This document shows, in pieces, positions 30,044 through 40,301 of a stretch of DNA of 64,000 bases. The translations under genes were made by a program, and so were the position numbers. This stretch comes from Micromonospora zamorensis (GTDB lineage Bacteria > Actinomycetota > Actinomycetes > Mycobacteriales > Micromonosporaceae). The notes below the pieces were generated by a model. That model was not told where the DNA came from and ran no database searches. It saw only the letters and a program-made list of their open reading frames with translations. The stretch's first letter is position 1; each line of letters starts with the position of its first letter. The DNA lies in the NCBI RefSeq assembly GCF_900090275.1, contig NZ_LT607755.1, positions 2,356,001 through 2,420,000 of the forward strand, given 5' to 3'.

Positions 30044-30643
30044 CTAAGGGACGTCTCGTAACTCGGGGCAGCTTGGACGAGGTGATCCGGGAGGTCCGTG
30101 ATCGATGGCTGCTGCGTATTGCCGGACGAACTCGACGCGGGAGGCGACATCGCTGCGCGGCAGGGTACTGAGCTCGTAGCCGTGGTGGGTGTAGGCAGTA
30201 ACCATGGCGTCGTGGGTACGGACGGCTTCGGCGAAGTCTTGGTGTCGTTCGCTGTCAGTGCTGTAGATCTGCGGCCAGGGCGGGGCGATGAACACACGCT
30301 GGTGGTAGCGGAACAGCTGCGCTGCGGCTGTCACGTGGGCGGGAACGGGCTGGCCGAGTAGGAGGTAGTAGCCGACCATGTCCGGGATCCCCCGGTCGAA
30401 GAAGACGGGCCCGGGATGCTGGCTGGCTTGGCGGTAGGAGCGGATCTCCCAGCTGAGCATGATCTCGGCGAACAGTCGTGAGTCGCCGGTGTGCAGCGCC
30501 TGGCCGCCGATCGACAGCTGGTCCTGGATGATCTGTCGTCCCGCTTCGTCGATGCAGGCGTGACCGGAACGCCGCAAGCTGTCGATCAGCGTGGTCTTGC
30601 CGGCACCGGGTCCCCCGGTGATGACGATGTACTGGCTGCTCAC
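30044..30643 (-). CDS. AAA_28-type predicted ATPase, IS passenger gene
   Basis: 199-residue P-loop ATPase/kinase-like protein: Walker A GGPGAGKTTLIDSL at the N-terminus, CIDEAGRQIIQDQL, FFDRGIPDMVGYYLLL (Walker B region), then an Arg-containing lid. AAA_28 proteins resemble nucleoside/nucleotide kinases, but few have known substrates. GTG 30643 is preceded by GAGAGGA. The last residues, RDVP, are encoded by the element's terminal repeat, and the TAG stop is made of the TA target duplication plus one flanking host base. The gene therefore needs the insertion site to end. Whether it helps transposition or the host is unknown. Confidence 0.8.
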   Translation of the reverse strand: MSSQYIVITGGPGAGKTTLIDSLRRSGHACIDEAGRQIIQDQLSIGGQALHTGDSRLFAEIMLSWEIRSYRQASQHPGPVFFDRGIPDMVGYYLLLGQPVPAHVTAAAQLFRYHQRVFIAPPWPQIYSTDSERHQDFAEAVRTHDAMVTAYTHHGYELSTLPRSDVASRVEFVRQYAAAIDHGPPGSPRPSCPELRDVP

Positions 30644-31550
30644 GTCGTCCTCTCTGATAGGCGTCTGCTCCTCGTGCCCCCAGCGTCTGTCCGCTGAAGA
30701 CGGTCATCGAGGATGCGTGGGTGCAGGTGATCTCCGCAGCCCGCCAGGAGTGGATCTTCCCGTTCACGGGGCTGACCCCCGCCCAGTTCCGCAGGCTGGT
30801 CCGTCTCGTCGCCGAGCGTGGCGGGGACGGCATCGCTGACGGCCGGCCGGGCCGACAGTGGGCCCTCGATCTTCCCGACCGGGTGCTGTTGGTCGCCGTC
30901 TACTGGCGCACGAACCTGACGATGCGCCAGATCGGCCCGCTGTTCGGGGTGTCACACTCCGCGGCCCACCGCGTCATCGACACCCTCGCGCCGCTGCTGG
31001 CCCTGACACCGGTACGTAAGCGGCCGGTCGAGCAGATCGCGATCGTCGACGGCACGCTGATTCCCACCCGTGATCACCGCCTGGCCACCCGGAGCAAGAA
31101 CTACCGGTACTCGACGAACCTGCAGGTCGCCATCGACGCCAGCACCCGCCTGATCATCGCCGTCGGCGACCCACAGCCCGGCAACCGCAACGACACCATT
31201 GTTTACCGCAGCTCGGGCATCGACCAAAAGTTGAACGGGCGGCCGGTGATGGCCGACGGCGGCTACCGCGGCAACCCCGAGGTGATCATGCCCTACCGTA
31301 AGCCCGCCGACGGTGCCGATCTGCCCGCCTGGAAGGAAGCCCTCAACGTCGAACACCGCACTGTCCGGGCAGGGGTCGAACACGCCCTGGCCAGGATGAA
31401 ATGCTTCAAGATCCTGCGCGACTACCGTCGCGCCGCCCACACATTGGCCGACGCCGCTTCCGGCATCGCCAACCTCCACAACATCATCCTGACCGGCTGA
31501 CCACCGGCCCGGCGCCGAGCAACGCCTTCACCCAGTTACGAGACGTCCCT
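30047..31550. mobile_element. IS5-like insertion sequence with passenger ATPase gene
   Basis: 1,504-bp element bounded by perfect 17-bp inverted repeats, AGGGACGTCTCGTAACT (30047-30063) and its complement (31534-31550), flanked by TA on both sides. The flanks join to CTAG, so the target was probably CTAG with a TA duplication. Inside are a DDE transposase on the plus strand and, divergent, an AAA ATPase reading out to the left end. The two genes are separated by 77 bases holding both starts. No other copy of the terminal repeat occurs between them, so both genes lie within one element. Confidence 0.85.
30721..31500 (+). CDS. IS5-family DDE transposase
   Basis: 259-residue transposase with an N-terminal helix-turn-helix of the HTH_Tnp_4 type (TNLTMRQIGPLFGVSHSAAHRVID) and a DDE_Tnp_4 catalytic domain. 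The three acidic residues are in AIVDGTLIP, VMADGGYRG and VEHALARMK. GTG at 30721 has a GAGGA upstream. The frame is intact, so the element may be active. It is divergent from the passenger ATPase gene. Confidence 0.92.
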   Translation: MQVISAARQEWIFPFTGLTPAQFRRLVRLVAERGGDGIADGRPGRQWALDLPDRVLLVAVYWRTNLTMRQIGPLFGVSHSAAHRVIDTLAPLLALTPVRKRPVEQIAIVDGTLIPTRDHRLATRSKNYRYSTNLQVAIDASTRLIIAVGDPQPGNRNDTIVYRSSGIDQKLNGRPVMADGGYRGNPEVIMPYRKPADGADLPAWKEALNVEHRTVRAGVEHALARMKCFKILRDYRRAAHTLADAASGIANLHNIILTG

Positions 31551-32196: not shown

Positions 32197-35100
32197 TCAC
32201 ACCTCGGCTGATTTGGTTCTGTACACGTCGAAGACACCGTCGATGCTGCGGACCGCGGCGAGTAGATGCCCAAGGTGCTGCGGGTTGGCCATCTCGAAGC
32301 TGAATCGGCTCACCGCCACTCGATCCCAACTGGTGGAGTGTGTCGCGGAGAGGATGTTGACCCGCTCGTCGGAGAGCACCCGGGTGACGTCGGCCAGCAG
32401 CTTGTGCCGGTCCAGTGCCTCGACCTGGATCGCGACCAGGAACGTCGAGGCGGAGGTGAGCTTCCAACTCACCTCGACCACGCGCTCGCTCTGCGCCCGC
32501 AGGTCCTCGGCGTTGGCGCAGTCGTCGCGGTGCACGCTCACCCCGCCGGAGCGGGTGACGAAGCCAAACACCGAGTCCGGTGGGACCGGGGTGCAGCAGC
32601 GGGCCAACTTGATCCAGACGTCGCTGACGCCCCGGACCACGACACCGGGGTCGCTGCTGCTCTGCCGGCTGCGCGGTGGCCGGGTGGCGACGGCGGTCTC
32701 GGCGATGTCCTCCGCCGCGCCCTCCTCGCCGCCGTACGCGGCCATCAGCTTCTGCACCACCGACTGCGCGGAGACCTGGCTGTCGCCGACCGCCGCGTAG
32801 AGCGAGGCCACGTCGGCCAGGTGCAGGTCCCGGGCGATCGACATCAGCGCGTCGGAGGTGAGCATCCGCTGCAACGGCATGCCCTGCTTGCGCATCGCCT
32901 TGACGATCGCGTTCTTGCCGGCCTCGATCGCCTCCTCGCGCCGTTCCTTGTTGAAGTACTGCCGGATCTTCGTCCGGGCGCGGGGGCTCTTGACGAAGCC
33001 CAGCCAGTCCTGCGTGGGGCCGGCCGTCTCGGACTTCGACGTGAAAATCTCGATCACGTCGCCGTTGGACAGCGTCGACTCCAACGGCACCAGCTTGCCG
33101 TTGACCCGCGCCCCGATGCACTTGTGCCCGACCTCGGTGTGCACCGCGTACGCGAAGTCCACAGGCGTCGACCCGGTCGGCAGCGGGATGACGTCACCCT
33201 TCGGGGTGAAGACGTACACCTCCTGGCTGGACAGGTCGAAGCGCAGCGCGTCCAGGAACTCGCTCGGGTCGGCCGCCTCACGCTGCCAGTCGAGCAGCTG
33301 CCGCAGCCAGGTCATCTCGTCGATGTGCGCGGGCGGGCCGACGATCTGGGTGCCCTTGTGCTCCTTGTACTTCCAGTGCGCGGCGATGCCGAACTCCGCG
33401 GTGCGGTGCATCGCGTACGTGCGGATCTGCATCTCCACCGGCTTGCCGGTGGGCCCGATGACAGTCGTGTGCAACGACTGGTACATGTTGAACTTGGGCA
33501 TCGCGATGTAGTCCTTGAAGCGGCCCGGGACCAGCTGCCAGTTGGCGTGGATGACACCCAGCGCCGCGTAGCAGTCCCGAACCGTGTCGACCAGGATCCG
33601 CACCCCGACCAGGTCGTAGATGTCGTTGAAGTCCCGACCCCGCACGATCATCTTCTGGTAAATCGGATACAGGTGCTCTGGCCAGGCGGTGATCTCTACT
33701 CGGATGTCTGCGGCGCCAAGGTCGGTCAGCATTTTGTCAGTGATCTGCCGCCGCAGGCCGTCGTGCTGTAGCTGGTGCTCGCTCAACAGTCGACTAACCT
33801 CAGCGTGGCCCTCGGGGGACGTAACCCGAAAGGCCAGATCGTCCAACTCCCGATGGATTCTAAATATCCCCAGGCGACGTGCCAGAGGACTATAAACACT
33901 AAGAGTCTCCTTTGCGACGCGACGCTGCTCGGGTCCCGGATAGGAGAAGGGCGAGCGAAGCTCCTGCAAGCAGGAAGCCAGCGTGATTATCAGAGTCCGG
34001 GGGTCAGAGGTAGAGGATATGATGGCCCGTTGACCTACCTTGAAGTCAACTGCAGCGTTCAGTGTGAGGGCCGCAACTCGCGATGTCCCATCGACAAGGC
34101 CCGCCACCTCGTGTCCAAAAGTATCGCGGACGTCAACTTTTGGGAATTGGGTCAGATGCAGCAGGCTTGCGGCCAAGACGGCGGCATCCATGCCCAGCTC
34201 AATCAGAATCTTCAGGACAGATAACGCGTGATCAAGTTGAGGATCCTGACCACTCCTACCTTTCGACGTCTGCAACCTTTGCGAAAAATCGTAGGCCCGT
34301 TCAAGTAATCTCAGGTCCTGGGTTGGCAAAGTCCGTTGGCTATTTTCCAATAGCTCGCCTAAAACGTCACTGCGATCTGAGGCGCCTCCAATTCCACGCT
34401 GCCCAAAACGCGAGACGGCACGCCAAATCTTCCGCCTTGTACCTAGGTAGGACAGTAGCCTTCCGGCCCGCTCCGAAATTTCACCAGTCGTTTCTGGCTC
34501 TGCGGCGTGTCCCTCGCCTTGGACCTGCTCTAGGGCAAGCCGTCGATCGAGAGTTGGAACCGTCACATCATTAGCAATCTCCCTCAAGAGTGCTAATCCT
34601 CTTCTATCGCCCACGTCTACCAGTGCCTCAGCACACCAGCGTCTATCAACTCCATCCAGAGTTGAATCATCCGCAAGAGTGGCCAGGAAATCTCGCCATG
34701 ACGTCGGAGGCAAGCGAGCGATAGCGTGGATTCCGCCCTTGGTGTAAACCTGCGGAATCGCAGCAATAGGGATCTCGCCGCTAGATTCTGAGGTAAGAAT
34801 GCTGGCAAGAAGCGCGATCGCCCATCGACGCCTGGCGTGATCAAGACTTCGCCTGAGCGAGGTCAATCGAAGTGCAGCTTTTCCTTTTTCTAGGTCGAGG
34901 TAACATAGCAATTCGATGGCAGGCTGTAGGTCCTGGGGAGATCTCTTCCTGGTGATCGAAGCTAGGGTTTTAGTAGCTCCCTCGACGACGTCGCTACCAA
35001 GACTAGAACCGTCGGAGTGAAGGGAACAGATTAGCCGGCATCCTTCAATGTTGCCTTTGGTGGTCAGCCGCTTCAATAGAGGCGTCAAGTCTTGCTCTCT

Positions 35101-37215
35101 GGACCAACCGTCGACCAAGAATCGGAGGAAGGATTGTCGTGTGGTCAGCCACTCTTGATTCTCAAGCCAGGAGCGGCGAGCCCAGACGTTACGGAACTGG
35201 CGCGCACTTTCATCTGAATTCTTGACGATAAAGCGCGTGGCCAAGAACTCTTCTATCGTTTTGTGGGAGAAAACGAAATCTCCACCGCGCTCCGTCAAGA
35301 CCCCACTTCGCCTAAGCAGCTCCCGGAGAAGGGAATGCCACCCAGCATCAGGAAGGTTGTTCGGCTTGAGCTCATCGGTCCACGTAGCCAACGCCTGGAC
35401 TGCTGTTCCGGTTTGGTCGCTCTGACGCCACCAGGCCAGTCGCTCCACGAGTCCTGTCGCACCCTGAAGCAACGTGCCACCTGCGGTTATGGCATCGACC
35501 CCATACCGCTCAGTTATAGAATTTATTTGATGGTGGATTCCATTTCGAGCTCCCCGGTACTGTCGCTCAAGTAACGAATTGACGAACGTGTCGTACAGCT
35601 GGCTTCTTCCCGTAGGGAAGATCTGGTCCGGATAGGCTATATGCAACTGGCAGAGCATTGCAGCCATAAGTGGATTCCGTGCTAGTTCTTCGAGATTCGC
35701 CTCGCTCGTCTTATTCATAAATCGATGCGCAGCTTGTTGCGGCGACGGTGTCCCAAGATGAGCTAACCATCCTTCTGCAAAACCATACAGCTGCTCACTG
35801 TCGAAGATTAGGAGCTCGAATACGGCAAGTTTCGGGAAAACTCGCCGGGGCAAGAGATTGTCGGGGCGGCTAGTAAGTATGAATTGGCCCACCCCGCTAC
35901 TCGGTTCCTCGACGTAGTCGTGAAGCCTCCGAGTGATGGCGAGCCGCTGATCGGTGCTCATGACTTCATCAAGGCCGTCGACCAGCAGCAGCCAGGAAGC
36001 TCCGTTTGCAGGTGATTTGCGGAAGAATTCGGCAGGCCATGATTCCGGGAGTCCAACACTGCTTAGGTCTTCATTTACGCTTTTCGCAATTGCTTCCGGC
36101 AAGGGCTGCGCGGGGATGAGATCTGCAGCAAGGACCCGCACCGGTACCTTCGAATTCAAGCCACTTTCGAATTTCCTTATCAGAGAGCCGACCGCAGTGT
36201 GGAGCAGGCTAGATTTGCCGGACCCCGCTTCACCCAGCACGATTGAGTTGTAAGAGTTATCAAATATTTCCTCCGCACGGATTGCCTGCCCAGCCTGACG
36301 CGGCCCGGCGTCTTCAAGAGACTCATTTGCTTCGACTAGTTGTTGTACATATACTGCGGATAACGGAGGCTGAGGGGTTTCCGGGAATACCGCCGGATAA
36401 GGATGAACAGCGGTTGCCCTTTTTGCCACTCTCAGGTATTCCCGGAGACGAGGACCGGGGAACCGCCAGCCGCCCGCCGCTATTTGCGAATCAGTGAGGC
36501 TGATCAGCCAGTCGTAATACAGTTGCTGCGTGCCTTGCAACAGCCTCACGGTGTCGACTCTGTCTAATATCTCGTCAACTGAGATTAGATGGGCGCTACC
36601 GGCATTGTTTGATACACACAAAATGCCACATATGGCCCCAGTGCGCCTATTGAGGACGGGGCTTCCACTGCACCCACCACCGATGGGCATACCGTAAACC
36701 CGGCCGAGATCAAGATTGCTTACGCCCCGTCTAAGGGATTCCCCTTGATAAGTGAAGGAAGCCGGTTGGCCGTTACGGAAATCCCCAACCGGATACCCGT
36801 ACGTCCACATTGAGTCGCCTGCGGCTGCACTACTTAGCAGTGGGACGGCGTAGCTGTTCAAGAGATCGTCTTTTGCGGGTAGTTTCAGGAAAGCCAAGTC
36901 AAGACCATCAGATGTGCGGAAGTATTGGCTGGCCGCAGGTTTGAGTAGAATCGTTCGCTGAGTTTCGACGTGCTCTGCTCTAACTTCGGTTGGTATTGCA
37001 CTAGCTGAGTCACCGAGCACATGGGCGCAAGTGGCGATCAGGTCTGCGCCGATCAGGAAGCCCGTCCCGGATCGGGGCTTATTTTTCTCCCATTGCGGCA
37101 CGTCGATCGCGACAGTCGCGGACTTGGTCAAGCGCTCCAGGACGTCTGGCAAATCTGGGGGGAATTTCGGAGCCCTGTCCATTCTTGACGTTCCACACCC
37201 CTGTACACTCATCAT
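32197..37215 (-). CDS. Trypsin-NACHT STAND NTPase fused to RelA/SpoT-type (p)ppGpp synthetase
   Basis: 1,672-codon protein joining three modules. Residues about 30-220 are a trypsin-like protease: His in CAHVLG (about 62), Asp in LDLAFLKL (about 105), Ser in GGGCSGSP (about 182). About 300-700 is a NACHT NTPase: Walker A GEAGSGKSSLL (about 328), Walker B LLLVDGLDEV (about 412), TSRP, and FVFSHKTIEEFLA; HEAT-like helices reach about 960. The rest is an RSH protein: a ruined HD hydrolase (about 975-1125), an intact synthetase (RFKDYIAMPKFNMYQSLHTT, EMQIRT), TGS (about 1330), a Cys-containing ZFD-like segment (KLARCCTPV) and ACT (about 1595-1672). No signal or membrane segment. Most of the gene is lower in GC than its neighbours, but about 32345-33650 is GC-rich. 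ATGs at 37212 and 37182 are other possible starts. It follows a Trypco1 gene by 67 bases. Confidence 0.88.
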   Translation of the reverse strand: MMSVQGCGTSRMDRAPKFPPDLPDVLERLTKSATVAIDVPQWEKNKPRSGTGFLIGADLIATCAHVLGDSASAIPTEVRAEHVETQRTILLKPAASQYFRTSDGLDLAFLKLPAKDDLLNSYAVPLLSSAAAGDSMWTYGYPVGDFRNGQPASFTYQGESLRRGVSNLDLGRVYGMPIGGGCSGSPVLNRRTGAICGILCVSNNAGSAHLISVDEILDRVDTVRLLQGTQQLYYDWLISLTDSQIAAGGWRFPGPRLREYLRVAKRATAVHPYPAVFPETPQPPLSAVYVQQLVEANESLEDAGPRQAGQAIRAEEIFDNSYNSIVLGEAGSGKSSLLHTAVGSLIRKFESGLNSKVPVRVLAADLIPAQPLPEAIAKSVNEDLSSVGLPESWPAEFFRKSPANGASWLLLVDGLDEVMSTDQRLAITRRLHDYVEEPSSGVGQFILTSRPDNLLPRRVFPKLAVFELLIFDSEQLYGFAEGWLAHLGTPSPQQAAHRFMNKTSEANLEELARNPLMAAMLCQLHIAYPDQIFPTGRSQLYDTFVNSLLERQYRGARNGIHHQINSITERYGVDAITAGGTLLQGATGLVERLAWWRQSDQTGTAVQALATWTDELKPNNLPDAGWHSLLRELLRRSGVLTERGGDFVFSHKTIEEFLATRFIVKNSDESARQFRNVWARRSWLENQEWLTTRQSFLRFLVDGWSREQDLTPLLKRLTTKGNIEGCRLICSLHSDGSSLGSDVVEGATKTLASITRKRSPQDLQPAIELLCYLDLEKGKAALRLTSLRRSLDHARRRWAIALLASILTSESSGEIPIAAIPQVYTKGGIHAIARLPPTSWRDFLATLADDSTLDGVDRRWCAEALVDVGDRRGLALLREIANDVTVPTLDRRLALEQVQGEGHAAEPETTGEISERAGRLLSYLGTRRKIWRAVSRFGQRGIGGASDRSDVLGELLENSQRTLPTQDLRLLERAYDFSQRLQTSKGRSGQDPQLDHALSVLKILIELGMDAAVLAASLLHLTQFPKVDVRDTFGHEVAGLVDGTSRVAALTLNAAVDFKVGQRAIISSTSDPRTLIITLASCLQELRSPFSYPGPEQRRVAKETLSVYSPLARRLGIFRIHRELDDLAFRVTSPEGHAEVSRLLSEHQLQHDGLRRQITDKMLTDLGAADIRVEITAWPEHLYPIYQKMIVRGRDFNDIYDLVGVRILVDTVRDCYAALGVIHANWQLVPGRFKDYIAMPKFNMYQSLHTTVIGPTGKPVEMQIRTYAMHRTAEFGIAAHWKYKEHKGTQIVGPPAHIDEMTWLRQLLDWQREAADPSEFLDALRFDLSSQEVYVFTPKGDVIPLPTGSTPVDFAYAVHTEVGHKCIGARVNGKLVPLESTLSNGDVIEIFTSKSETAGPTQDWLGFVKSPRARTKIRQYFNKERREEAIEAGKNAIVKAMRKQGMPLQRMLTSDALMSIARDLHLADVASLYAAVGDSQVSAQSVVQKLMAAYGGEEGAAEDIAETAVATRPPRSRQSSSDPGVVVRGVSDVWIKLARCCTPVPPDSVFGFVTRSGGVSVHRDDCANAEDLRAQSERVVEVSWKLTSASTFLVAIQVEALDRHKLLADVTRVLSDERVNILSATHSTSWDRVAVSRFSFEMANPQHLGHLLAAVRSIDGVFDVYRTKSAEV

Positions 37216-37282: not shown

Positions 37283-37633
37283 TCACCCCTCGGGTCGCGA
37301 CCATTCAAGCGTCACCTTAAATGCCGATTTGGCACTGGCTTTTCCAATTACTGCCACAAAAGACCCGGAATTGACGGCGAATTCGCAGCCGAACTCGACG
37401 GTGATTTTCGACATCTGCTCGTCCTGGAGCTTGCTAGAAATCTTCTGCGCCAGCTCAGCCACCGCGTCTAGCGCCCCGTCAAGTGAAGGGCATTGTCCCG
37501 CGATCTCCACTTCATGACCAATGCGAGAAGGTTGACCGACATCCTCGCTCAGCATGAATAGCGTGTGATCATCAAGCTGCACTTCAACGAGTACTGCGCG
37601 GTTCTGAGAGCTGGTCTCGCCAGGCTCGATCAA
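37283..37633 (-). CDS. Trypsin-co-occurring domain (Trypco1/CU044_2847) protein
   Basis: 116-residue small protein of the CU044_2847 type, the trypsin-co-occurring domain 1. The conserved C-terminal strand pattern is present: KITVEFGCEFAVNSG, then FVAVIGKASAKSAFKVTLEW. Such proteins are encoded beside trypsin/STAND conflict systems in actinobacteria and are thought to be partners or targets of the protease. It lies upstream of the trypsin-NACHT-RSH gene in the same direction. The start is TTG at 37633, with GGAAGG about 8 bases before it; the frame has no ATG that would keep the N-terminal strands. Confidence 0.83.
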   Translation of the reverse strand: MIEPGETSSQNRAVLVEVQLDDHTLFMLSEDVGQPSRIGHEVEIAGQCPSLDGALDAVAELAQKISSKLQDEQMSKITVEFGCEFAVNSGSFVAVIGKASAKSAFKVTLEWSRPEG

Positions 37634-37895: not shown

Positions 37896-38384
<489 letters not shown>

Positions 38385-38415: not shown

Positions 38416-38823
38416 TCAGGTCGTCCGGCTCAGCTCGGCGAGGAGCTTCTCCACCCGGGCGCGGATCTCGTCGCGGATCGGGCGGACGGCGTCGACTCCC
38501 TTGCCGGCGGGGTCCTCCAGCTGCCAGTCCTCGTAGCGTTTGCCGGGGAAGACCGGGCAGGTGTCGCCGCAGCCCATCGTCACGATGACGTCGGAGGACT
38601 CCGCGGTCGCGTACTCCAGACGTCTGGGGGTCTGGTCGGTGATGTCGATGCCGACCTCGCGCATGGCCTGCACGGCGGCGGGGTTGACCGTGTCGGCCGG
38701 CGCGGAGCCGGCCGAGCGGACCTCGACGGTGTCGCCGGCGAGGTGGCGCAGCCAGCCGGCGGCCATCTGGGACCGGCCGGCGTTGTGGACGCAGACGAAC
38801 AGGACGCTGGGCCTGGTGCTCAT
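38416..38823 (-). CDS. arsC: Arsenate reductase ArsC (LMW phosphatase type)
   Basis: 135-residue cytoplasmic arsenate reductase. The N-terminal P-loop CVHNAGRSQMA carries the nucleophilic Cys, and the downstream MGCGDTCPVFPGKRYEDW holds the second and third redox Cys and the conserved Asp/Pro region. In actinobacteria such enzymes use thioredoxin or mycothiol/mycoredoxin. It is last in the arsR-acr3-arsC operon, 18 bases after acr3, and supplies arsenite for the pump. Confidence 0.92.
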   Translation of the reverse strand: MSTRPSVLFVCVHNAGRSQMAAGWLRHLAGDTVEVRSAGSAPADTVNPAAVQAMREVGIDITDQTPRRLEYATAESSDVIVTMGCGDTCPVFPGKRYEDWQLEDPAGKGVDAVRPIRDEIRARVEKLLAELSRTT

Positions 38824-38841
38824 GAGGGGTTGCCTTCCGGG

Positions 38842-39933
38842 TTACGCGGTTGCCGAGGGTGCGGGAGTGAAGAAGCGGCGGCGCGCCCACAGGGACACGT
38901 AGACCAGCCCGACCAGGACGGGCACCTCGATCAGCGGGCCGACGACCCCGGCGAGGGCCTGACCGGAGGCGACGCCGAAGGTGCCGATCGCGACCGCAAT
39001 GGCGAGCTCGAAGTTGTTGCCGGCCGCGGTGAAGGCCAGGGTGGTGGTGCGCTCGTAGCCGAGACCGATGGCCCGGCCGAGAGCGTAGGAGCCGGCCCAC
39101 ATGAGGGCGAAGTACACCAGCAGGGGCAGCGCGATGCGGACGACGTCCAGGGGGCGGCTGGTGATCGCGTCGCCCTGTAGCGCGAACAGGATCACGATCG
39201 TGAACAGCAATCCGTAGAGGGCGGCCGGGCCGATCCTGGGCAGGAAGCGTGCCTCGTACCAGGTGCGGCCCTTGGCGCGCTCGCCGAGACGGCGGGTGAG
39301 GTAGCCGGCGATCAGGGGGATGCCGAGGAAGATGAGCACGTTGCGGGCGATGTCCCAGGCCGAGATCGTCAAATCGGCGCCGGACAACCCCAGCCACCGG
39401 GGCAGCACCGAGAGGTAGAACCAGCCGAGCAGACCGAAGGCGGCGACCTGGAAGACGGAGTTGAGCGCGACCAGGACGGCGGCGGCCTCCCGGTCACCGC
39501 GGGCGAGGTCGTTCCAGATGATGACCATGGCGATGCAGCGGGCCAGACCGACGATGATCAGGCCGGTGCGGTACGCGGGCTGGTCGGCCAGGAAGATCCA
39601 GGCCAGGGCGAACATCACGGCGGGGCCGACGAGCCAGTTGAGCACCAGCGAGGAGATCAGCAGGCGGCGGTCGCCGGTGACGGTGTCGAGCCGGTCGTAG
39701 CGGACCTTCGCGAGCACCGGGTACATCATGATCAGCAAGCCGATCGCGATCGGCAGCGAGATCCCGCCGACCGTCACCGCTTCCAGCGCGCTGTCCAGGC
39801 CGGGGATCAGGCGACCGAGCAGCAGGCCGGCGACCATGGCCAGCCCGATCCAGGCCGGCAGGAACTGGTCGAGTCGGGAGAGGCGACCGACCACGGCGCT
39901 CTCGGCCGGGTCGCTCTGGACGGTGCTGGTCAC
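38842..39933 (-). CDS. acr3: ACR3-family arsenite efflux permease
   Basis: 363-residue membrane carrier with about ten transmembrane helices that exports As(III). The helix-4 Cys needed for transport is visible in VGLARCIAMVIIWNDLARGD, and the helix-9 segment reads FTAAGNNFELAIAVAIGTFG, both hallmarks of ACR3. The start is GTG 39933, overlapping the arsR stop (GTGA), so the two are translationally coupled. Confidence 0.95.
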   Translation of the reverse strand: MTSTVQSDPAESAVVGRLSRLDQFLPAWIGLAMVAGLLLGRLIPGLDSALEAVTVGGISLPIAIGLLIMMYPVLAKVRYDRLDTVTGDRRLLISSLVLNWLVGPAVMFALAWIFLADQPAYRTGLIIVGLARCIAMVIIWNDLARGDREAAAVLVALNSVFQVAAFGLLGWFYLSVLPRWLGLSGADLTISAWDIARNVLIFLGIPLIAGYLTRRLGERAKGRTWYEARFLPRIGPAALYGLLFTIVILFALQGDAITSRPLDVVRIALPLLVYFALMWAGSYALGRAIGLGYERTTTLAFTAAGNNFELAIAVAIGTFGVASGQALAGVVGPLIEVPVLVGLVYVSLWARRRFFTPAPSATA

Positions 39934-40301
39934 GAGCAGTCCGGTCGGTCGGTGGCCGCGGCTGCGGGTGTGACGGTGAGCAGTGCGGAGAGCTGGCGCA
40001 GCATGGCCGGCCGGGCGCGATAGTAGACCCAGGTGCCCCGGCGTTCGGCGTCGACGAGCCCGGCCTCCCGCAGCGTCCTGAGGTGGTGCGAGATGGTGGG
40101 CCCGGTCAGGTCGAACGCGGGGGTCAGATCGCAGACGCAGATCTCCCCACTCTCGGCGGAGGCGATCATCGACAGCAGTTGCAGCCGCACCGGGTCGCCG
40201 AGCGCCTTGAACGCGGGCGCGAGCACCGCGGCGGCCTCTGCTGGCACGCGTCGCTCGGTCAGCGAGGGGCAGCAGGCCGCCGATACCGCTTGATTAGACA
40301 T
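39930..40301 (-). CDS. arsR: ArsR-family arsenic-responsive repressor
   Basis: 123-residue winged-HTH repressor. The metal site ICVCDL near the recognition region is the canonical ArsR As(III) pair, and an extra CC lies near the N-terminus (AACCPS). The HTH reads TGPTISHHLRTLREAGLVDAERRG. It is first in arsR-acr3-arsC and divergent from the acetyltransferase; a palindromic operator lies between them, so arsenite should induce both directions. Confidence 0.93.
   Translation of the reverse strand: MSNQAVSAACCPSLTERRVPAEAAAVLAPAFKALGDPVRLQLLSMIASAESGEICVCDLTPAFDLTGPTISHHLRTLREAGLVDAERRGTWVYYRARPAMLRQLSALLTVTPAAAATDRPDCS

Follow-up and report, generated by a model that had tools for sequence, protein, structure and literature searches.

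Trypco1 was named by Kaur et al. 2020 (PMC7159879), and passages of that paper list a RelA nucleotidyltransferase among the domains seldom seen on the vWA component in MoxR-vWA systems. In fungi, RelA/SpoT is given in part of a review (PMC10197012) as a minor clade among the effector domains of nucleotide-binding leucine-rich-repeat (NLR) proteins, and for the bacterial NLR-related protein bNACHT25 the guarding of a host process (DnaJ) is proposed in excerpts of its description (PMC12169576). The present study concerns a trypsin-NACHT-helical repeat-RelA/SpoT homologue (RSH) gene of Micromonospora zamorensis, located at 32197..37215 on the minus strand of a 64,000-nucleotide window (contig NZ_LT607755.1, positions 2,356,001 to 2,420,000) and coding for a protein of 1672 amino acids (aa). 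In the open-access literature covered (titles and abstract openings, plus the papers cited), neither a trypsin-NACHT–Rel protein nor host-gene conversion of a receptor's integrated domain was found. An earlier note on this DNA knew of no described member of the class with a RelA output; within that literature this holds for the trypsin-NACHT-Rel combination, and it has to be qualified for the vWA component and the fungal NLRs, as far as the excerpts of PMC7159879 and PMC10197012 go.

From its sequence, the product may be read as a trypsin–NACHT protein, linked to Trypco1, in which an entire Rel serves as an inbuilt detector of stalled ribosomes and the protease is the output. This reading is put forward tentatively, at somewhat less than an even chance.

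Architecture and spread of the trypsin-NACHT-RSH protein

The gene is a single open reading frame with zero internal stop codons. Its product has, in order, a trypsin-like domain, a NACHT domain, helical repeats and a complete RSH, in which all parts of the long-RSH layout (HD, synthetase, TGS, AH/RIS with a zinc finger, ACT) follow one another in the usual order. Pfam matches in the N-terminal half are Trypsin_2 at residues 50-198 (36622..37068, minus strand here and for all parts of the gene; 8.7e-13) and NACHT at 324-483 (35767..36246; 5.6e-07, 30 bits against a cut-off of 26.7). The RSH half matches HD_4 at 974-1117 (33865..34296; 3.9e-25), RelA_SpoT at 1181-1287 (1.6e-39) in a synthetase domain spanning 1166-1310 (33286..33720), TGS at 1333-1392 (33040..33219; 1e-24), RelA_AH_RIS at 1412-1563 (32527..32982) and ACT_4 at 1590-1666 (32218..32448), and the NCBIfam model TIGR00691 (spoT_relA) scores 649 bits on the fusion protein against a cut-off of 499. 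Translation may in fact begin at residue 12, which aligns with the first residue of the frame in locus L079.

The trypsin triad (H65, D106, S183), the Walker A motif GEAGSGKS and the Walker B motif DGLDE are all present. The H/D/S triad is found in 16/16 fusions with a complete region and its D and S in 18/18, while Walker A GK[ST] together with the Walker B acidic motif is seen in 23/23 rows; H65, D106, S183 and K334 are invariant across 9 aligned sequences, the window's included. An AlphaFold model of residues 1-960, built on a 31-row alignment, has a mean predicted local distance difference test score (pLDDT) of 82. When the model was searched with Foldseek, the trypsin part was HtrA/DegP-like and the core NLR-like, with NOD2, NLRP3 and NLRC4 as best PDB matches. 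The HEAT-like helical repeats, seen in the model and without a Pfam match of their own, extend from about residue 573 to about 901 (34513..35499). They are followed by a linker (residues 902-973; 34297..34512) of low pLDDT up to residue 960, the end of the model, with values below 50 at 903-928 and 935-960. When PDB sequences were searched using the N half as query, no match was obtained at E 0.01. The NCBIfam EruA model aligned with residues 398-674 (8.6e-14) at 50.6 bits, far under its cut-off of 1000, and Avs1b reached 14.2 bits against a cut-off of 1500. PADLOC returned part matches only, the best being RT-Protease_XI (1e-09) and LmuA (3e-07), both on the trypsin part, and PDC-S33 (2.5e-07, residues 1138-1271).

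Upstream of the fusion, on the same strand, lies a 116-aa Trypco1 gene (37283..37633, minus; PF19493, 3.3e-15). A Trypco1 homologue stands beside the trypsin-NACHT gene in 12/15 fetched loci and in 12/12 of those holding the N-terminal half; the three loci without it (L089, L090, L092) are also without the trypsin-NACHT N-terminus. In a scan of genome contigs the homologue was seen in 16 of the 19 loci at the head of the list (L194-L212). Pfam scans of 14 of the frames between 28158 and 42344, not counting the fusion, found no MoxR ATPase and no vWA protein.

A homologue search among long proteins with the RSH half, in which scores were computed for the 7991 candidates with the most words in common, returned 187 hits, and a second one with the N half returned 123; the best 120 of each were listed. 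Among the matches listed, at least 18 proteins (the window's and 17 other clusters) have trypsin, NACHT and RSH; in P0002, P0092, P0072, P0083, P0085 and P0096 NACHT is present and trypsin is unrecognisable in the deposit. Named carriers are Micromonospora sp. MP36, Plantactinospora endophytica, Micromonospora sp. NBS 11-29, Micromonospora sp. ATCC 39149, M. tulbaghiae and M. chalcea, and also, with a degenerate RSH, Amycolatopsis coloradensis (L197:5947-10341), where the trypsin-NACHT part is followed by a heavily degraded RSH that has lost the zinc-finger ligands and kept an ACT-like end. The N half was found at E<=1e-50 in 16/354 genomes of the family, so its distribution is patchy. The RSH is joined or adjacent in 12 of these 16, counting the broken G244, the contig-cut G076 and G135, and the split G332 (P. 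endophytica), where it is a separate 728-aa frame immediately downstream and the stop codon marks the boundary between the two adjacent frames. In G322 repeats occupy the C-terminus in place of the RSH, and in G321, G084 and G010 no RSH match was found inside the short fetched loci. The single TGA reported for G255 lies outside its 1660-aa frame. In G276, a 528-aa frame (L089:7264-8850) consists of RSH residues 1177-1668 only, 92% identical to the window's, and either remains from a fusion since deleted or is a derivative that stands alone. An assembly join or frameshift artefact is ruled out for the window's gene, the genome being one 7.1 Mb contig and the architecture recurring in other assemblies.

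Most of what the earlier note had said of the layout is borne out. The triad-complete trypsin, the NACHT with its Walker motifs and the HEAT-like helices in one frame agree with Pfam, the residues and the model, the Trypco1 neighbour is in place, and the fit to a conflict-type architecture of signal transduction ATPases with numerous domains (STAND) is upheld by the triad, the NTPase motifs, Trypco1 and recurrence. The domain search that it had suggested recovered every domain named (Trypsin_2, NACHT, RelA_SpoT, TGS, ACT_4), homologue searches for the architecture found at least 17 other clusters, Trypco1 was present at each of the 12 fetched loci holding the N half, and the join or frameshift that it had named as refuting did not appear. 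It had called the RSH near-full, with an HD remnant and a ZFD-like region; the synthetase, TGS and ACT domains are present as described, but the RSH is full and its Zn ligands are intact.

Catalytic and tRNA-reading residues of the RSH part

Seven hydrolase residues, 13 synthetase residues and five TGS/Zn residues were scored in 31 conflict-linked RSH parts (29 NACHT-linked, one NB-ARC-linked and one MoxR/TIR-linked). G158 (whose RSH resembles that of G294), G244, G135 and G276 were omitted from this table, as were P0006, P0010, P0023 and P0025, duplicates of L067, L068, L071 and L072. The comparison rows were 36 Rel proteins, 14 from the loci and 22 long proteins labelled Rel by hand. Sites such as R44, N148 and N306 were picked because Rel genes keep them. 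For the others, roles were taken from parts of published papers: R241 and R269 sandwich the adenine, D264 and E323 are catalytic and Y308 is also cited (PMC7983052); K243, probably an ATP-phosphate residue, and its neighbours follow PMC13299517; the HD residues and H432 follow PMC13376610; and H432, P411 and K412 lie in contact with the CCA end of a deacylated tRNA (PMC4974054).

In the window protein the HD domain is of the hydrolase type and lacks the catalytic motif, the HDxxED stretch (D78, E81, D82) being deleted and N148 gone. The synthetase keeps 10/13 residues, the changes being R241W, K243E and S247P, and its ATP loop (residues 1175-1182; 33670..33693) reads AWPEHLYP, against GRPKHLYS in the 14 Rel genes from the loci. 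All five TGS/Zn residues are intact, including the Zn ligands and the tRNA-CCA contacts corresponding to P411, K412 and H432 of RelA. Across the conflict-linked parts, the hydrolase set is complete in 3/31, the synthetase set in 6/31, both in 0/31 and the TGS/Zn set in 23/31. Among the Rel comparison rows the hydrolase set is complete in 34/36 and the synthetase set in 33/36, with both complete in 14/14 from the loci. R241 or K243 is altered in 16/31 conflict-linked parts, in two of them by a K/R swap alone, and K297 or E323 is altered in several others. Where the parts cover the site, H432 is kept in 27/30, K/R412 in 30/30 and P411 in 29/30. Two of the most eroded, P0086 (hydrolase 0/7, synthetase 4/13) and G076 (3/7 and 4/13), have all five TGS/Zn residues intact. 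The ratio of nonsynonymous to synonymous substitution rates (dN/dS) is under 1 in most comparisons of domains (0.19-0.58 for the HD), so the RSH parts are not simply decaying pseudogenes.

Because the protease, the NTPase and Trypco1 are constant while the catalytic sites of the RSH erode and its tRNA-reading residues outlast them, the protease is taken as the likely output and the RSH as the likely sensor. The order effector–NTPase–sensor, and the fact that the N half elsewhere is joined to HEAT or TPR C-termini instead of an RSH, suggest that the C-terminal RSH probably occupies the sensor position of a STAND protein whose output is the protease. In such a protein, binding of the Rel part to ribosomes stalled with uncharged tRNA would let the NACHT switch assemble. 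The assembled NACHT would then set the N-terminal protease free to act, with cell proteins or Trypco1 as its likely substrates, and growth of the infected cell would be halted. In ribosome-bound RelA the N-terminal domains lie near the 30S spur, at the ribosome periphery (as given in part of PMC4974054); therefore, we infer, it is plausible that a NACHT at the N-terminus is exposed at this site. Where relatives have the synthetase site complete, alarmone synthesis could be a second output. The earlier note had offered sensing of stalled ribosomes as a second possibility, and it is the one that this evidence favours.

Its first proposal was that (p)ppGpp synthesis is switched on: NACHT assembly or a protease cut would free the synthetase, and unopposed (p)ppGpp would halt growth, the dead hydrolase making the enzyme synthesis-only, like RelA. 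With this would agree the incomplete hydrolase residues in 28/31 parts, the six parts with all 13 synthetase residues, the low synthetase dN/dS in that clade (given below) and the RelA domains noted in conflict systems in passages of PMC7159879. The RelA synthetase module of the note is indeed present by Pfam, but with the altered ATP loop and beside an HD without its HDxxED stretch. For the window protein R241W and K243E, together with S247P, argue against synthesis as the output, as do the substitutions at R241, K243, K297 or E323 in the other parts; in addition, a pure output module would not need ribosome- and tRNA-binding domains. We regard an alarmone output as quite unlikely.

Relationship of the RSH part to the host's own rel

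The host genome also has an ordinary rel (L002; G000:C1:1697630-1699903) and a second, more distant RSH (38% identity). When the fusion was compared with its own rel at the DNA level, 12/1260 bases differed over residues 1188-1607 (32395..33654), 292/615 over 968-1172 and 32/174 over 1612-1669; the HD and about the final 60 residues appear unconverted. Protein identity to own Rel is 39% in the HD, 93% in the synthetase, 100% in TGS, 99% in AH, 100% in RIS and 86% in ACT. The synonymous distance (dS) reaches 1.60 in the HD and 0.28 in ACT, against 0.02-0.07 over the stretch between the main part of the synthetase and RIS, both included. G+C content at third codon positions (GC3) of the fusion is 0.58 in the HD and 0.92-0.99 in the tract domains, and the host rel differs from the nearest other rel by 1.75% in the tract and 1.35% in the HD. 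Collapsed paralogues as the source of the 99% tract were ruled out, both copies being present with 12 differing sites and junctions on both sides. The tract was most likely overwritten from the resident rel by gene conversion. The direction from rel to fusion is read from the GC3 jump in the fusion and the normal distance of the host rel to its relatives; conversion from fusion to rel is unlikely, since the host rel lies near its relatives in tract and HD alike.

Own-host similarity was examined among 137 rels (37 fetched as loci and 100 mainly in score order, not a random sample), where own rel is the closest to the window's core. Over residues 1196-1500, own rel is the closest of the 137 in 6/12 conflict-linked RSH genes (binomial 1.3e-10), and for the HD in 2/11. 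Within a set of ten host rels, own rel is closest for the core in 9/10 (permutation p 5e-5) and for TGS in 8/10 (p 5e-5). These tests exclude G244 (RSH in several frames), G135 (cut by a contig end) and G322 (no RSH), and the ten-host permutation also excludes G158 and G350; the HD of G276 is absent and the own rel of G255 covers only HD to part of AH. G294 and G255 have little own-host signal. The stretches of low difference vary by host: about 1180-1540 in G168, about 1118-1480 in G258, about 1238-1330 in G332, around TGS and at the C-terminus in G241, and around TGS in G155. Conversion most likely took place in separate events, each from the resident rel, and it would, we infer, keep the Rel part matched to the host ribosomes.

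Rel is also carried by other frameworks. In P0075 (Nocardia tenerifensis) there is an NB-ARC–TPR–RSH protein whose RSH reaches 87% identity to rel genes of the order; with it as query against 397 genomes of the order, no full-length NB-ARC–RSH appeared among the matches listed, best first. In L090 (G350; L090:6468-19406) an RSH stands behind an N-terminus of no assigned family, near a MoxR-like ATPase, a TIR protein and an Hsp70-like protein, and is closest to its own rel from HD to AH. FastTree trees of three RSH segments place the conflict-linked parts scattered among Rel proteins, a pattern that conversion can also give. The NACHT, NB-ARC and MoxR/TIR-linked forms look like separate captures of Rel.

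An integrated decoy would account for several of these features. Here the Rel part would bait phage factors that bind or modify Rel, conversion would keep the bait lifelike, and tampering would trip the NACHT protease. A host-protein domain nearly identical to own rel inside an NLR-type receptor fits this, as do the capture of Rel by NACHT, by NB-ARC-TPR in Nocardia and at a MoxR/TIR locus, and the precedent of plant NLRs with integrated domains (as described in part of PMC4759884). The HD domain, however, is not kept Rel-like. Moreover, on no deep search, we know of no phage factor directed against actinobacterial Rel, which also counts against a decoy, and we regard a decoy as unlikely. The decoy and sensor models share most of their predictions, and the trigger is their main difference.

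Alternatively, a mobile trypsin-NACHT gene may have taken up rel long ago and been passively homogenised with the resident rel, the RSH being a tolerated passenger. That conversion tracks DNA similarity would suit this explanation, and so would the decay in G244, with its RSH in several frames, and the piece of RSH left behind in G276. Against it speak the long frames found intact in many species, a dN/dS that is under 1 for most domains, TGS residues that outlive both catalytic sites and the capture of Rel by other frameworks, and a mere by-product of recombination seems improbable.

Several observations weigh against the sensor with a protease output. The NACHT-linked G258, G168, G294, P0007 and P0012 have all 13 synthetase residues, and synthetase dN/dS is 0.05-0.13 in the three measured members of this clade; because of the complete sites and the low ratio, alarmone synthesis probably matters there. 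RelA/SpoT is described as an NLR effector domain in fungi (in the part of PMC10197012 cited above), which also favours an alarmone output, and the tryptophan at R241 might still stack adenine. Zn ligands are wholly or mostly absent in L197, P0103, P0110, P0098 and P0122, in the last four either through true loss or through truncation of the deposit, and H432 is substituted in P0072, P0096 and P0122. A few segments have dN/dS above 1 (the synthetase start in three hosts and TGS in G241). P0072 has about 130 residues ahead of its NACHT match without a recognisable trypsin, so the protease may not be universal. As to conversion, among the 137 rels own rel ranks second in three and third in one of G258, G158, G276 and G076, 11 in G255 and 17 in G294, the HD too has some own-host signal (5/9, p 0.0013; ten host rels), and conversion could be a neutral outcome of DNA similarity. 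Finally, there is no homologue of tested function at useful similarity.

Taken more broadly, these proteins could be bacterial integrated-domain NLRs, that is, mobile NACHT proteases with own Rel as sensor or bait, whose activities are dying and which are retuned in each host by conversion from the resident rel. We consider this possible, with a probability that approaches without reaching one half. Sensing of infection by bacterial STAND receptors that bind no phage protein is still largely unexplained, and a receptor containing the cell's own detector of ribosome stalling would be a concrete answer. It would tie NLR-type immunity to the stringent response and suggest how a mobile receptor may stay matched to its host, namely by having its sensor overwritten from the resident gene. 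A search rule also follows: housekeeping proteins at STAND C-termini with dead active sites and own-host conversion tracts.

Surrounding genes and comparison with known systems

On the downstream side of the fusion an IS5-type transposase (30721..31500, plus) adjoins an AAA_28 gene (30044..30643, minus). Beyond Trypco1 lies an Enolase C-terminal fragment (37980..38384, plus; Enolase_C 9.7e-60) whose N-terminal half is missing. It shares 68% identity with a further enolase match of this genome and is a truncated, probably foreign copy, placed between the island and an arsenic set (38416..40301, minus) made up of a low-molecular-weight phosphatase-type protein (a candidate arsenate reductase), an ACR3 efflux transporter and an ArsR regulator.

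With the long RSH enzymes Rel and RelA the fusion shares the domain order and, over residues 1188-1607, 99% DNA identity to the host rel; it differs in the deleted hydrolase motif, the altered ATP loop and its place behind a protease and a NACHT. The toxSAS/CapRel proteins are short alarmone synthetases without TGS and ACT that act as anti-phage alarmone or tRNA-modifying enzymes. A synthetase fold tied to defence is common to both, but the fusion falls outside that class, being a long RSH with TGS and ACT and an altered active site on a STAND protease. Like bNACHT25, EruA and Avs, it is a NACHT-centred receptor, whereas trypsin as the likely output and a host housekeeping protein at the C-terminus set it apart.

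The Trypsin/Trypco1 NTP-dependent conflict systems, in the passages of PMC7159879 that concern them, resemble it in the active trypsin-like domain, the Trypco1 neighbour and the switch NTPase. Those systems have MoxR-vWA-VMAP, whereas the fusion has NACHT and a C-terminal full-length Rel (TGS, ZFD, ACT) that is mostly degraded catalytically and appears overwritten from the host rel, a kind of protein that those passages do not mention. Fungal NLRs likewise place a RelA/SpoT homologue on an NLR-type NTPase; there, by the excerpt of PMC10197012, it is an effector domain, while the bacterial fusion begins with a protease and ends with a full-length RSH. By analogy the fusion also ranks with receptors having integrated host domains, its extra domain being homologous to a protein of the same genome. 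Plant NLRs with integrated domains, as portrayed in part of PMC4759884, are similarly immune-type receptors that include a host-protein copy; such copies recur in many of their lineages, as capture of Rel may also have done. The fusion would thus be a bacterial parallel to them, with the difference that its copy appears to have been overwritten from the resident gene.

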